DNA of 64,000 nucleotides from Blastococcus haudaquaticus (GTDB taxonomy: Bacteria > Actinomycetota > Actinomycetes > Mycobacteriales > Geodermatophilaceae), in assembly GCF_900230285.1 (NCBI RefSeq), contig NZ_OCNK01000004.1:62001-126000 (forward strand), read 5' to 3'. Shown piece by piece: positions 21,050-39,019 of this stretch. Position 1 is the first letter of the stretch. The number at the start of each line of letters is the position of its first letter. A program made the translations under genes and the position numbers. Under the pieces are notes generated by a model. It ran no database searches. It had not been told where the DNA came from and saw only the letters and a program-made list of their open reading frames with translations.

Positions 21050-22819
21050 TCAGCGGAGGCGGCGGGTGTCGTCGGGGAGCCGCTCCGTGACGCCCCGCGC
21101 GTCCAGCCACTCCGCGAGCGGGACGGCGACCCGGCGGCTCGTCCCCCACGCCTGTCGGGCCTGGCTGAGCGTGAACGGCTGCTCGGCCGACGTCAGCCGT
21201 CGCCGTGCCTCCTCCTCGATGCCCGGGGCGAGGTAGACGCCCTCGGCGATGCGCACGAGCTGTCCGCTGCGGACGGCGGCCGCCAGCTCCCGCGCGCCCA
21301 GCCCGACCGCGGCGAGGTCGGGGGCCTCGGGAGCGGCGAACGGGTCCGCGGCCAGCCGGGCCCTGATCGCGTCGACCGCTCGCTGGACCTCCGGCGGCAG
21401 GGCCGCCTCCCCGTCGACCACCCGTCCCTCGCGCAGCTCCAGCGGCGGCCGGACGACCGCGGCCACCAGCTCGGCGTCCGGCAGCTCCAGGGCCCGGCGC
21501 ACCACCTCGACCGGCGGGCCCGGCTCCAGCGGCCGCAGGCGGCGGTAGCGGACGACGACGTCGGGGACGCGGGCGGCGAGGTCGTCGGCCAGCCCGGCCG
21601 CGAGCAGCCACGTACCGTGCCCGGTCGCGCCGTCGGGGACGGGCCAGCCCATGGCGGCGAAGTCGTCGGCCCGGACGATCCTGCGGCGTGCCAGGTCGGC
21701 CGCCGCGCCGGCCGCCCCACTCGGCTGGGCGGCCAGGTCCGCTGCCCGCCGGCGCGCCGAGCCCCGGCGGCGCAGCTCCGGCGGATCCACGTCCCGCACG
21801 TCGGCGCCCATGACCAGCCGGCTGCCCGGGTCCCGGAGGAGCAGCCGGTCCCCCACCCGGAGCGGGAGTGCCGACGCGAGCCGCAGCCGGACCGCGGAGC
21901 CCTCGAGCGGGCGCAGCCGGGCACCGACGGAGGCGGAGCCGATGTGGACGACCGGCTCCGCCGGGAGGCGGTCCGCGTGCTCGGCGGTGAGCGTCACGTC
22001 GACCACCTGGGTCCGTCGGAACGCCGCCGGGGTCAGCAGGACGTCGCCGCGGGACAGGTCCTCGACCGCGACGTCCCGGAGGTTGAGCGCCACCCGGGCG
22101 GTGGCCGCGGCCCGCTCCACCGGTGCGCCCAGCGACTGCACCCGGCGGACGACGACCTCCCGGTCGCCCAGCAGGAACCGGTCGCCCGCAGCCACGCTGC
22201 CGGCGGCCAGTGTCCCGGTCACCACCGTGCCGGCGCCCTTGATGGTGAAGGCGCGGTCGATCCACAGCCGGACCGGCGCGGACGGATCCGCCGGCGGCAG
22301 CGCCGCCAGCAGCGTCTCCAGCGCGACCGAGAGGTCGCCGACGCCGTCCCCCGTCACGGCACTGACGGCGACGGCGGGGACGTCGCCCATCGAGGTCCCC
22401 GCCAGGCGCTCCCGGACGTCGGCCAGCACCGGCGCCGGGTCGGCGAGGTCGGACTTCGTCACCGCCAGCACGGCGTGCCGCACGCCGAGCGCGTCCAGGA
22501 CGGCCACGTGCTCGGCGGTCTGGGCGGACCAGCCGTCGTCGGCGGCCACGACCAGCAGCGCGGCCGGGACCGACCCCACGCCGGCCAGCATGTTGCCGAC
22601 GAACTTCTCGTGCCCGGGCACGTCGACGACCGCGATCCGGCGGCCCGAGCGCAGCGTCGTCCAGGCGAAGCCCAGGTCGATGGTCAGCCCGCGCCGGCGT
22701 TCCTCGGCCCACCGGTCCGGCTCCATGCCGGTGAGCGCCCGCACCAGCGCCGACTTGCCGTGGTCCACGTGCCCGGCGGTCGCGATCACGTCCATGTGGT
22801 TCACGTCGGGGCCGGTCAT
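21050..22819 (-). CDS. selB: Selenocysteine-specific elongation factor SelB
   Basis: A 589-residue translation factor that binds Sec-tRNA and the SECIS hairpin. Start ATG 22819 overlaps the selA stop (ATGA). The GTPase domain has TAGHVDHGKSALVRALTG, a switch region RRRGLTIDLGFAW, DVPGHEKFVGNMLAGVGS and VTKSDLAD. The EF-Tu-like beta barrels follow, and the C-terminal winged helices end with LTSAEQPFTLSQARQAWGTS, the part that contacts the mRNA hairpin. The partner tRNA upstream has a CUA anticodon, so this SelB should work at UAG codons. Confidence 0.95.
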   Translation of the reverse strand: MTGPDVNHMDVIATAGHVDHGKSALVRALTGMEPDRWAEERRRGLTIDLGFAWTTLRSGRRIAVVDVPGHEKFVGNMLAGVGSVPAALLVVAADDGWSAQTAEHVAVLDALGVRHAVLAVTKSDLADPAPVLADVRERLAGTSMGDVPAVAVSAVTGDGVGDLSVALETLLAALPPADPSAPVRLWIDRAFTIKGAGTVVTGTLAAGSVAAGDRFLLGDREVVVRRVQSLGAPVERAAATARVALNLRDVAVEDLSRGDVLLTPAAFRRTQVVDVTLTAEHADRLPAEPVVHIGSASVGARLRPLEGSAVRLRLASALPLRVGDRLLLRDPGSRLVMGADVRDVDPPELRRRGSARRRAADLAAQPSGAAGAAADLARRRIVRADDFAAMGWPVPDGATGHGTWLLAAGLADDLAARVPDVVVRYRRLRPLEPGPPVEVVRRALELPDAELVAAVVRPPLELREGRVVDGEAALPPEVQRAVDAIRARLAADPFAAPEAPDLAAVGLGARELAAAVRSGQLVRIAEGVYLAPGIEEEARRRLTSAEQPFTLSQARQAWGTSRRVAVPLAEWLDARGVTERLPDDTRRLR

Positions 22820-24120
22820 CCGTCGACCACCGCCAGCACCGCGGTCCCGAGTTCGTCGTCGCCGGACGGCGGCACGCTGCGCAGGTTCAGCAGCGTCCGG
22901 CCGTCCTCGACGTAGCCCACGACCGGGGGGCTGCCCCGTCGCAGCCGCTCGGCGAAGGACGACGGCAGCGACACCGCAGCGCTGGGCAGCGGGTGCTCCG
23001 GCGCCCCTCCCCCGCCGACGCGCGCCTCCGCGTCGACGGCGACGGCGTCGACACCCGCCTCCGCCAGTCGCCCGGCGAGCGCCCGGGCGCGCGCCCGGAG
23101 CCCGTCGACGTCGGCCGCCAGCATTTCCTGCACCGGCGGCAGCGGCCCCCGCAGCGTGGCCTCCAGCGCGGCGAGCGTCGTCTTGTCCACCCGCAGCGCC
23201 CGGTAGAGCGGATGCCGGCGCAGCCGCTGCACCAGGTCGGCGCGGCCCAGGACGAGCCCCGCCTGGGGACCGCCGAGCAGCTTGTCGCCGCTGGCCAGCA
23301 CGAGGTCGGCACCGGCGGCGAGCGTGCTCTGCAGATCCGGCTCGTCGGGCAGCAGCGGGTGCGGGCGGAGCAGCCCGGACCCGACGTCGGCGACGAGGGG
23401 CACGTCCTCGAGTGCGGAGGCGAGCTCGGCCACCTCGACGGCCCGCGTGAACCCGCGGACGACGAAGTTCGACGGATGGACCTTGAGCACGGCCCCGGTG
23501 TCCGTGGCGAGGGCGCCCCGGTAGTCCGCCAGGGTCACCCGGTTGGTCGTGCCGACCTCGCGCAGCCGCGCGCCGGTGGACACCAGCAGGTCCGGGATGC
23601 GGAAGCCGTCGCCGATCTCGACCAGCTCGCCGCGCGCGATGACCAGCTCGCGGCCCTGGCCCAGGGCGGTGGCCACCAGTGCGAGGGCGGCCGCGCAGTT
23701 GTTGACGACGATCGCCGCCTCCGCTGCGGGCACCGCGTCGAGCAGCGCCGTGATGGCCGCCTCGCCGCGCGGGCCGCGACGCCCGGTCGCCAGGTCCAGT
23801 TCCACGTCGGTGGTCCCGGCAGCCGCGGTGATCGCCGCGACGGCGGCCGGGGACAGCGGCGAGCGGCCCAGGTTCGTGTGCACCAGGACGCCGGTGGCGT
23901 TGAGGACCGGGCGCAGGCTGCTCGCCGTCCCGGGAAGCGAGGCGAGCACGGCGTCCACGGCCTGGGGAGATGCGAGCTCGCCGTCCCGGATCTGCTGCTG
24001 GACGCGCTGCACGGCCCCCTTGACGAGTCCGCGGCCGAGCCGCTCGCCGACCGCTCGGAGACGCGGGTCGGCGAGGAGGGTGTCGGTGCGCGGCACCTGC
24101 CGGCGCGGATCGGCGCTCAT
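22816..24120 (-). CDS. selA: L-seryl-tRNA(Sec) selenium transferase SelA
   Basis: A 434-residue PLP enzyme converting Ser-tRNA-Sec to Sec-tRNA-Sec with selenophosphate. The N-terminal helical domain begins RRQVPRTDTLLADPRL. The core has NATGVLVHTNLGRSPLSPAA, VNNCAAALALV, ADVGSGLL and the cofactor lysine in LASGDKLLGGPQAG. Length matches bacterial SelA (about 430-470). It lies directly after tRNA-Sec and overlaps selB by four bases, so tRNA-selA-selB form a tight unit on the minus strand. Confidence 0.95.
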   Translation of the reverse strand: MSADPRRQVPRTDTLLADPRLRAVGERLGRGLVKGAVQRVQQQIRDGELASPQAVDAVLASLPGTASSLRPVLNATGVLVHTNLGRSPLSPAAVAAITAAAGTTDVELDLATGRRGPRGEAAITALLDAVPAAEAAIVVNNCAAALALVATALGQGRELVIARGELVEIGDGFRIPDLLVSTGARLREVGTTNRVTLADYRGALATDTGAVLKVHPSNFVVRGFTRAVEVAELASALEDVPLVADVGSGLLRPHPLLPDEPDLQSTLAAGADLVLASGDKLLGGPQAGLVLGRADLVQRLRRHPLYRALRVDKTTLAALEATLRGPLPPVQEMLAADVDGLRARARALAGRLAEAGVDAVAVDAEARVGGGGAPEHPLPSAAVSLPSSFAERLRRGSPPVVGYVEDGRTLLNLRSVPPSGDDELGTAVLAVVDG

Positions 24121-24149: not shown

Positions 24150-24245
24150 TGGCGGAGGCGGACGGGAATCGAACCCGCCTGACCGAGGTACTCGGCCACG
24201 TCGGCTTTAGAGGCCGCGGGGGTCACCAGACACCCTGACGCCTCC
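24150..24245 (-). tRNA. selC: tRNA-Sec with CUA anticodon (UAG-decoding), CCA encoded
   Basis: A 96-base tRNA. The acceptor stem GGAGGCG pairs with CGCCTCC, followed by G and encoded CCA. The T arm is GGCGGG-TTCGATT-CCCGTC (one G-U), so acceptor plus T stem stack 7+6 = 13 pairs, the total typical of bacterial tRNA-Sec. The variable arm is long (TGGCCGAG-TAC-CTCGGTCA, 8 pairs) and the D stem extended, with one T-C mismatch. The anticodon stem CGGC/GCCG encloses the loop CTCTAAA, so bases 34-36 are CUA (24208-24210), not UCA. It therefore reads UAG. The position directly upstream of selA-selB confirms its identity. Confidence 0.95.
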
Positions 24246-25615: not shown

Positions 25616-26623
25616 GTGACCAGCGCACCCGCGACGATCCGGCTCACCCAGTTCGCGCACGGTGGCGGCTGCGCCTGCAAGATCCCGCCCGGCGAGCTGG
25701 AGGCCGTCGTCGCGGGCCTCACCGCGACCGGTCCCGCCTCGCCCAACGCCGAGCTGGTCGTCGGCCTGGACGACGGCGACGACGCCGCGGTCGTGCGGAT
25801 CGCGGGGGGTCAGGGTCTTGTGCTGACCACCGACTTCTTCACCCCCGTGGTCGACGACGCGTACACGTTCGGCCGGATCGCCGCGGCCAATGCGCTGTCC
25901 GACGTCTACGCGATGGGCGGCACCCCGGTCGTCGCCGTCAACCTGCTCGGCTGGCCGCGCGACGTCCTGCCCGCCGACCTCGCCGCCGAGGTGCTGCGCG
26001 GCGGCCTCGAGGTGGCCCAGGAGGCCGGCTGCCACGTGGGCGGCGGGCACTCCATCGACGACCCCGAGCCGAAGTACGGCATGGCCGTCACCGGCCTGGT
26101 GGACGTCGACCGGCTGATCCGCAACGACGCCGCGGTCGCCGGATCGGCCCTGTCGCTGACCAAGCCGCTCGGCGTCGGGGTGCTCAACAGCCGGATGAAG
26201 GCGACCGGCGAGGTGTCGGAGGCGGCGGTCGCGTCGATGACGGCGCTGAACCGGGAGGCGGGCCGGGCCGCCGTCGCCGCCGGGATCCGGGCCGGCACGG
26301 ACGTCACCGGCTTCGGTCTGCTCGGACACCTCTACAAGATGGCCCGGGCCAGTGGCGTGACGGCCGTGGTCGACGCGGCCGCCGTCCCGTACCTGACCGG
26401 TGCGCGCGAGGCGCTGTCCGACGGGTACGTCTCCGGCGGGACGCGCCGCAACCTGGACTGGGTGCGCCCGCACACCGACCTGTCCGCGGTCCCCGAGGAC
26501 GAGGCGCTGCTCCTGGCCGACGCGCAGACCTCGGGGGGCCTGCTGCTCGGCGGCGAGGTACCCGGAGCCCCGGTGATCGGCGAGTTCGTGCCGCGCGGGG
26601 AGTTCGTCGTCGTCATCCGCTGA
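25616..26623 (+). CDS. selD: Selenide, water dikinase SelD
   Basis: A 335-residue selenophosphate synthetase, making the selenium donor for SelA from selenide and ATP. The N-terminus has FAHGGGCACKIPPGEL with the catalytic Cys and Lys; the first position is Cys, so SelD itself is not a selenoprotein. Then come DDAAVVRI, LVLTTDFFTPVVDD, AANALSDVYAMGG and GGGHSIDDPEPKYG. Length is typical. It is on the opposite strand from selB-selA-tRNA but only two genes away. It overlaps the convergent MerR gene by 11 bases. Confidence 0.96.
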   Translation: MTSAPATIRLTQFAHGGGCACKIPPGELEAVVAGLTATGPASPNAELVVGLDDGDDAAVVRIAGGQGLVLTTDFFTPVVDDAYTFGRIAAANALSDVYAMGGTPVVAVNLLGWPRDVLPADLAAEVLRGGLEVAQEAGCHVGGGHSIDDPEPKYGMAVTGLVDVDRLIRNDAAVAGSALSLTKPLGVGVLNSRMKATGEVSEAAVASMTALNREAGRAAVAAGIRAGTDVTGFGLLGHLYKMARASGVTAVVDAAAVPYLTGAREALSDGYVSGGTRRNLDWVRPHTDLSAVPEDEALLLADAQTSGGLLLGGEVPGAPVIGEFVPRGEFVVVIR

Positions 26624-38942: not shown

Positions 38943-38956
38943 CGCGGACCTCCAGC

Positions 38957-38998
38957 GGGCCGTCTTGTCGCAGTCCGGGTACGGCACCCCTCGTCCGG
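38957..38998 (-). promoter_or_regulatory. Guanidine-III riboswitch
   Basis: On the minus strand the 42 bases run CCGGACGAGG, then GCCGTACCCGG, then ACAAGACGGC, the conserved blocks of the guanidine-III (formerly mini-ykkC-related class III) pseudoknot. It ends six bases before the GGAGG site of sugE, so guanidinium binding would unmask translation of the exporter. The match of all three blocks in order and the gene identity make this a strong call. Confidence 0.92.
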
Positions 38999-39019
38999 GA
39001 GCCGGTTCGCGGCTCCTGC

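Follow-up and report, generated by a model that had tools for sequence, protein, structure and literature searches.

The selenocysteine tRNA (tRNA-Sec) encoded in the window—the whole stretch of 64,000 nucleotides of Blastococcus haudaquaticus DNA analysed here—has the anticodon CUA and is the only tRNA-Sec detected in the organism. Judging from the sequences compared below, it almost certainly reads UAG, and the switch from UGA to UAG would have taken place within the family Geodermatophilaceae. The use of UAG for selenocysteine (Sec) in this family is already known, having appeared in print in 2016 and 2017. It is one of few natural cases of a recoded stop codon that moved and, as the move lies in a family whose other genera keep UCA, its steps are testable. 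These steps appear to comprise changes of two bases in the anticodon and of a single pair in its stem; the hairpin behind the Sec codon was kept.

The tRNA-Sec gene, its neighbours and its client

The tRNA gene lies among the other genes of the Sec pathway:

24150..24245 (-): selC, tRNA-Sec with anticodon CUA and an encoded 3' CCA (ARAGORN, RF01852 and fold)
22816..24120 (-): selA, 434 amino acids, directly downstream of the tRNA (TIGR00474, 421.6 bits; cut-off, 267.9)
21050..22819 (-): selB, start at 22819 inferred from an ATGA overlap with the selA stop (TIGR00475, 287.8 bits, computed on 21095-22816; cut-off, 242.25)
25616..26623 (+): selD, 335 amino acids (TIGR00476, 388.7 bits; cut-off, 125)

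The first-pass annotation, made from the letters alone, had placed selA, selB and selD beside the tRNA, and each of the three scores above its curated cut-off. ARAGORN finds one tRNA in the window, at 24150-24245 on the minus strand, with the anticodon CTA (bases 24208-24210 when the minus strand is read directly), and prints it as ‘tRNA-Pyl’, which is the program's label for a CTA anticodon. The covariance-model check proposed at first pass gave a full-length match to the Rfam tRNA-Sec model (RF01852) at 24154-24245 on the minus strand, with 65.6 bits (E = 4e-11) against a gathering score of 47. The gene folds with an energy of -50.9 kcal/mol (z = -3.02 relative to 200 shuffles) into a structure with 7 acceptor and 6 T-stem pairs; its variable arm is long, and its anticodon loop reads CUCUAAA. 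These results agree with the earlier description of a tRNA-Sec with a CUA anticodon, a long variable arm and a 7+6 acceptor/T stack.

A search of the whole genome (an assembly of 4.5 Mb in 11 contigs, 99.97% complete) with RF01852 returned seven matches: the window tRNA and six others, identified by ARAGORN as tRNA-Ser (three), tRNA-Tyr, tRNA-Leu and tRNA-Met. Thus, no second tRNA-Sec and no tRNA-Sec with UCA was found by RF01852 and ARAGORN in the 11-contig assembly. The pattern named at first pass as speaking against UAG decoding, a second tRNA-Sec with UCA together with UGA-type genes only, did not emerge from this genome-wide search.

The gene that such a tRNA would serve lies elsewhere in the genome, where a search with the formate dehydrogenase (FDH) model TIGR01591 identified a frame of 1,154 residues with one TAG. 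This TAG, of the kind that the first-pass annotation proposed to search for, coincides precisely with the Sec position (IENQARI[TAG]HSATVPGL); with TAG read as Sec, the sequence becomes IENQARI-U-HSATVPGLGASFGRGG. The fetched part of the protein (798 residues) scores 1443.7 bits with NF041513, an NCBIfam formate dehydrogenase model (cut-off, 1400), and both the open frame and the homology to FDH continue past TAG. The canonical features of UGA-encoded Sec (a UCA anticodon, and UGA as the Sec codon) are absent from the window's tRNA, from the tRNA-Sec set of the genome and from its FDH.

Among the 46 window genes called by the GC3 rule, 44 end in TGA and 2 in TAG, so Sec is now placed on the stop codon that is rare in the window; by the same rule, the window holds no in-frame TAG candidates. 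By the known bacterial pathway, SerRS would charge tRNA-Sec with serine, SelA would convert the product to Sec-tRNA using selenophosphate from SelD, and SelB would bring Sec-tRNA solely to UAG codons with a hairpin behind them. With delivery limited in this way, other UAG codons would still stop translation. Elsewhere in the window, at 38954-39019 (-), lies an ordinary guanidine-III riboswitch (Rfam, 67.5 bits), and the end of the frame behind it resembles what we take to be an SMR-type (small multidrug-resistance) guanidinium exporter.

Distribution and history of the two codons

Matches to tRNA-Sec (RF01852, E up to 1e-9) are present in 108 of 112 Geodermatophilaceae genomes; the 4 genomes with none are 72-82% complete. 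The anticodon is CUA in 101 genomes, the window's included, and only UCA in 7 (G066, G068, G069, G070, G072, G073 and G074, of genera g5-g7). Without the window's genome, the counts are 107 genomes matched, 100 with CUA and 7 with UCA only. One genome (G058) has both types.

FDH with TAG occurs in 98 of the 112 genomes. The remaining 14 comprise G033, in which the FDH match lies only downstream of the codon, G079, and 12 genomes with no match at E 1e-40, namely G034, G094 and G096 (67-81% complete) and the 9 genomes of g5-g7. This FDH has no match at E 1e-40 in any of the 7 UCA-only genomes, and only G033 and G079 among the 101 CUA genomes are without FDH-TAG for a reason other than the lack of a match. 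G097 and G098 (72% and 80% complete) have FDH-TAG and no tRNA-Sec match. In a different FDH encoded by genus g7, the Sec site has TGA (in G071 and G072, the sequence reads SCNRT-U-HAPSVVG), and one TGA is listed for the FDH match of each of G073 and G074. The two FDH copies of G079 (L300 and L301, on contigs C12 and C4) are 71 and 95 bases short relative to the FDH gene of the window organism, codon and hairpin included; the two gaps share their right-hand break point, and the CUA tRNA-Sec is still present. The loss may reflect decay of the gene or a fault of the assembly at a strong hairpin.

Outside the family, 46 of the 47 tRNA-Sec examined, from a larger number found, have UCA. The exception is a metagenome-assembled genome (MAG) of another family (G230; 82% complete, 3% contamination), which has a CUA tRNA in a selA-tRNA-selD block (L279, contig C194) that is around 77% identical to the Geodermatophilaceae loci; its other tRNA-Sec has UCA and both of its listed FDH rows have TGA. 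We did not accept this block as a case of CUA outside the family, as a Geodermatophilaceae-type block in a genome that otherwise has a UCA tRNA and TGA-type FDH is probably contamination. Also set aside were a ‘tRNA-Pyl’ printed by ARAGORN in L278, which is an 84-base stretch unlike tRNA-Sec, and weak RF01852 matches in L276, L277 and L280-L282, which are tRNA-Ser. In G330, a genome from another family, L278 (G330:C1:2700439-2700530) contains a second tRNA-Sec with UCA. FDH was sampled in 397 genomes of the order, which yielded at least 65 rows from outside the family. Of the 65 listed, from 62 genomes, 64 have one TGA; in the other (G209:C295:6242-6817), the part that matched includes one TAG in addition to one TGA. 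In all 16 outside sequences that were read, TGA stands at the same residue as the family TAG.

A hairpin follows the Sec codon at the same distance in 39 TAG-type and 16 TGA-type FDH sequences. Its loop is GGUCU in all 39 sequences with TAG, and GGUCU (9), AGUCU (6) or AGUUU (1) in those with TGA. Pair 15-27 is always standard (G-U, G-C, U-A or C-G with TAG; U-G, C-G or U-A with TGA), and the outermost pair is standard in all 39 TAG sequences and in 5 of the 16 TGA sequences. When folded by itself, the hairpin of the window organism's FDH does not exceed shuffled sequences in stability (z = 0.25); we counted this result against the UAG reading and did not use the fold as support. The alignment indicates that this SECIS-type recognition hairpin stayed while codon and anticodon changed, conserved with compensatory changes that, as the sequences are related, are not independent events.

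The tRNAs of the family differ between the two types in the anticodon arm, at bases 34 and 35 and at the loop-closing pair: the arm is CGGT-CTTCAAA-ACCG in the 7 UCA-only tRNAs and CGGC-CTCTAAA-GCCG in 101 of 101 CUA loci. Outside this arm the two types are alike; the genes of G031 (CUA) and G074 (UCA) are 90.6% identical over their whole length, and the 7+6 stack is found in both types. The stack and the odd stem pairs singled out at first pass are present, but the UCA tRNAs of the family share both, so neither is specific to CUA. A SelA tree with 112 rows (75 CUA, 4 family UCA and 33 outside UCA; quick search method, midpoint root) places the CUA sequences on one side of one branch with a support of 100, so a single switch suffices. 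The 75 CUA rows represent part of the 101 CUA genomes, with L015-L044 (1.5 kb flanks) left out; 9 of 87 input loci gave no SelA. Among the 37 outside loci with a match, L275 (<250 residues) and L248, L255 and L279 (<60% of columns) were dropped. We propose that the change from UGA to UAG occurred within the Geodermatophilaceae, most simply once, by way of tRNA bases 34 and 35, the loop-closing pair and the Sec codon, and that the hairpin was retained.

Two other readings of the window's tRNA can be weighed against these data. The CUA anticodon is what a pyrrolysine tRNA, as printed by ARAGORN, would have; however, the gene matches the tRNA-Sec model end to end, adjoins selA, selB and selD, and carries a long variable arm in place of the three bases of tRNA-Pyl (PMC7609411), and the chance that it is tRNA-Pyl is negligible. 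Nothing specific favours a second account, in which the tRNA has decayed or acts as an amber suppressor that inserts serine, and the FDH gene has a normal stop codon or an error of sequencing at TAG. This is also very improbable, given that the same TAG recurs at the FDH Sec site in 98 of 112 family genomes, that the open frame and FDH homology run past it, and that all 101 CUA loci examined have an identical anticodon arm. Decoding of UAG as Sec by this tRNA is the reading that we retain.

Two types of tRNA-Sec in Geodermatophilus marinus LHW52908

The family genome with both anticodons (G058) is listed as Geodermatophilus sp. LHW52908, which by strain number is Geodermatophilus marinus; the source of this species is a marine sponge, going by its description, cited in the reference list of PMC12453565. 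On its contig C17 (NZ_QVQH01000024.1), a UCA tRNA-Sec and a UGA-type AhpD-like gene lie together (L154:1169-2154):

G058:C17, 1169-1263 (-): tRNA-Sec with anticodon UCA (RF01852, 81.8 bits)

This tRNA (fold z = -3.53) is 76% identical to the CUA tRNA of the same genome, 76-80% identical to the family UCA tRNAs and up to 86.3% identical to tRNAs of other families, and thus looks foreign. After a gap of 315 bases, the AhpD-like gene (192 residues) follows on the other strand. Its TGA occupies the second Cys position of a CxxC motif (NRCFY-U-MESH), and the frame is open on both sides. The protein scores above the cut-offs of TIGR01926 (112.6 bits; cut-off, 81.8) and Pfam CMD (28.2; cut-off, 23), and below that of NF041238 (51.7 bits; cut-off, 175). 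A scan of the genome collection, which finds close relatives only and has Cys versions outside its sample, identified relatives in a SAR324 MAG (37%) and a Chloroflexi MAG (34%), both with TGA at the same place. The SAR324 gene can form a hairpin with an AGUUU loop at the same distance, and its stem (CGGAG/CUCCG, compared with CGCAG/CUGCG in LHW52908) shows a compensatory change; this pairing is our own reading, and in the default fold the loop has three bases. No AGUUU hairpin is seen in the Chloroflexi gene, and that of LHW52908, when folded by itself, does not exceed shuffled sequences in stability (z = -0.42) and was not used as support. No close plasmid copy of the protein was found: in the 333 plasmid records with relatives, every best place was below 60% identity.

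In this genome, selA and selB have a single match each above cut-off; the two lie on contig C11 next to the CUA tRNA, and the FDH of the genome has TAG. We lean slightly towards the reading that LHW52908 inserts Sec both at UAG, with its own tRNA and FDH, and at UGA, with an acquired tRNA-Sec(UCA) brought in on a mobile stretch with its AhpD-like client, and that one SelA and one SelB would serve both. If this is true, transferring no more than a tRNA and its client gene can add a Sec codon, and LHW52908 would be a natural cell in which to ask if a single SelB can work with two tRNAs and two codons.

An assembly mis-join or contamination would fit the position of the stretch, which is 1-2.2 kb from the end of its contig and has transposase genes on both sides, and the GC content of the first 6 kb of C17, which is 62-66%, against 71-79% over most of the sequence beyond 18 kb; the surveyed MAG G230 shows such mixing. 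Against this, the genome is listed as 100% complete with 1% contamination, and a 2.6-kb stretch at 51-53 kb of the same 69-kb contig matches, in whole or in part, all 26 genus genomes searched, itself included, so C17 belongs to the genus; we regard an artefact of this kind as unlikely, with an appreciable residual chance. The stretch might instead be real but dead, a recent import that receives no service from the resident SelA and SelB. The 76% identity between the two tRNAs and the low stability of the AhpD-like hairpin alone favour such an import, but the UCA tRNA is intact (81.8 bits) and folds well, the gene is open on both sides of TGA, and its AGUUU loop also occurs in 1 of the 16 UGA-type FDH hairpins read; this account seems to us doubtful. 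The LHW52908 genome bears on the window organism as well: because it has a UCA tRNA-Sec and a UGA-type gene beside CUA, the presence of both in one genome would not alone refute UAG decoding. In open-licence PMC papers, we found no report of an organism with both Sec codons.

Comparison with known systems

Sec programmed by UAG in Geodermatophilus and Blastococcus was reportedly described by Mukai et al. in 2016. PMC5330540 (Santesmasses et al. 2017), citing Mukai 2016, reports tRNA-Sec(CUA) in three Geodermatophilaceae genomes, together with FDH, UGSC-motif and AhpC proteins; the precedent named in the first-pass annotation was thus correct. PMC10778597 likewise states that some species use UAG for Sec. 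The cases described here resemble the published ones in the family concerned, in the CUA tRNA-Sec and in the TAG at the Sec site of FDH; they add another genome, a family-wide survey, sister genera with UCA and a comparison of the hairpin across the two codons.

The AhpD-like TIGR01926 protein with CxxU is listed as a selenoprotein in PMC13188914. The LHW52908 gene conforms to TIGR01926 and has CFYU, but it has a UCA tRNA-Sec of its own next to it, and the resident Sec codon of the genome is UAG. Compared with canonical bacterial Sec insertion at UGA, the system in the window shares selA, selB, selD, the structure of tRNA-Sec and a hairpin behind the codon, and differs in having the anticodon CUA rather than UCA and the codon TAG rather than TGA.
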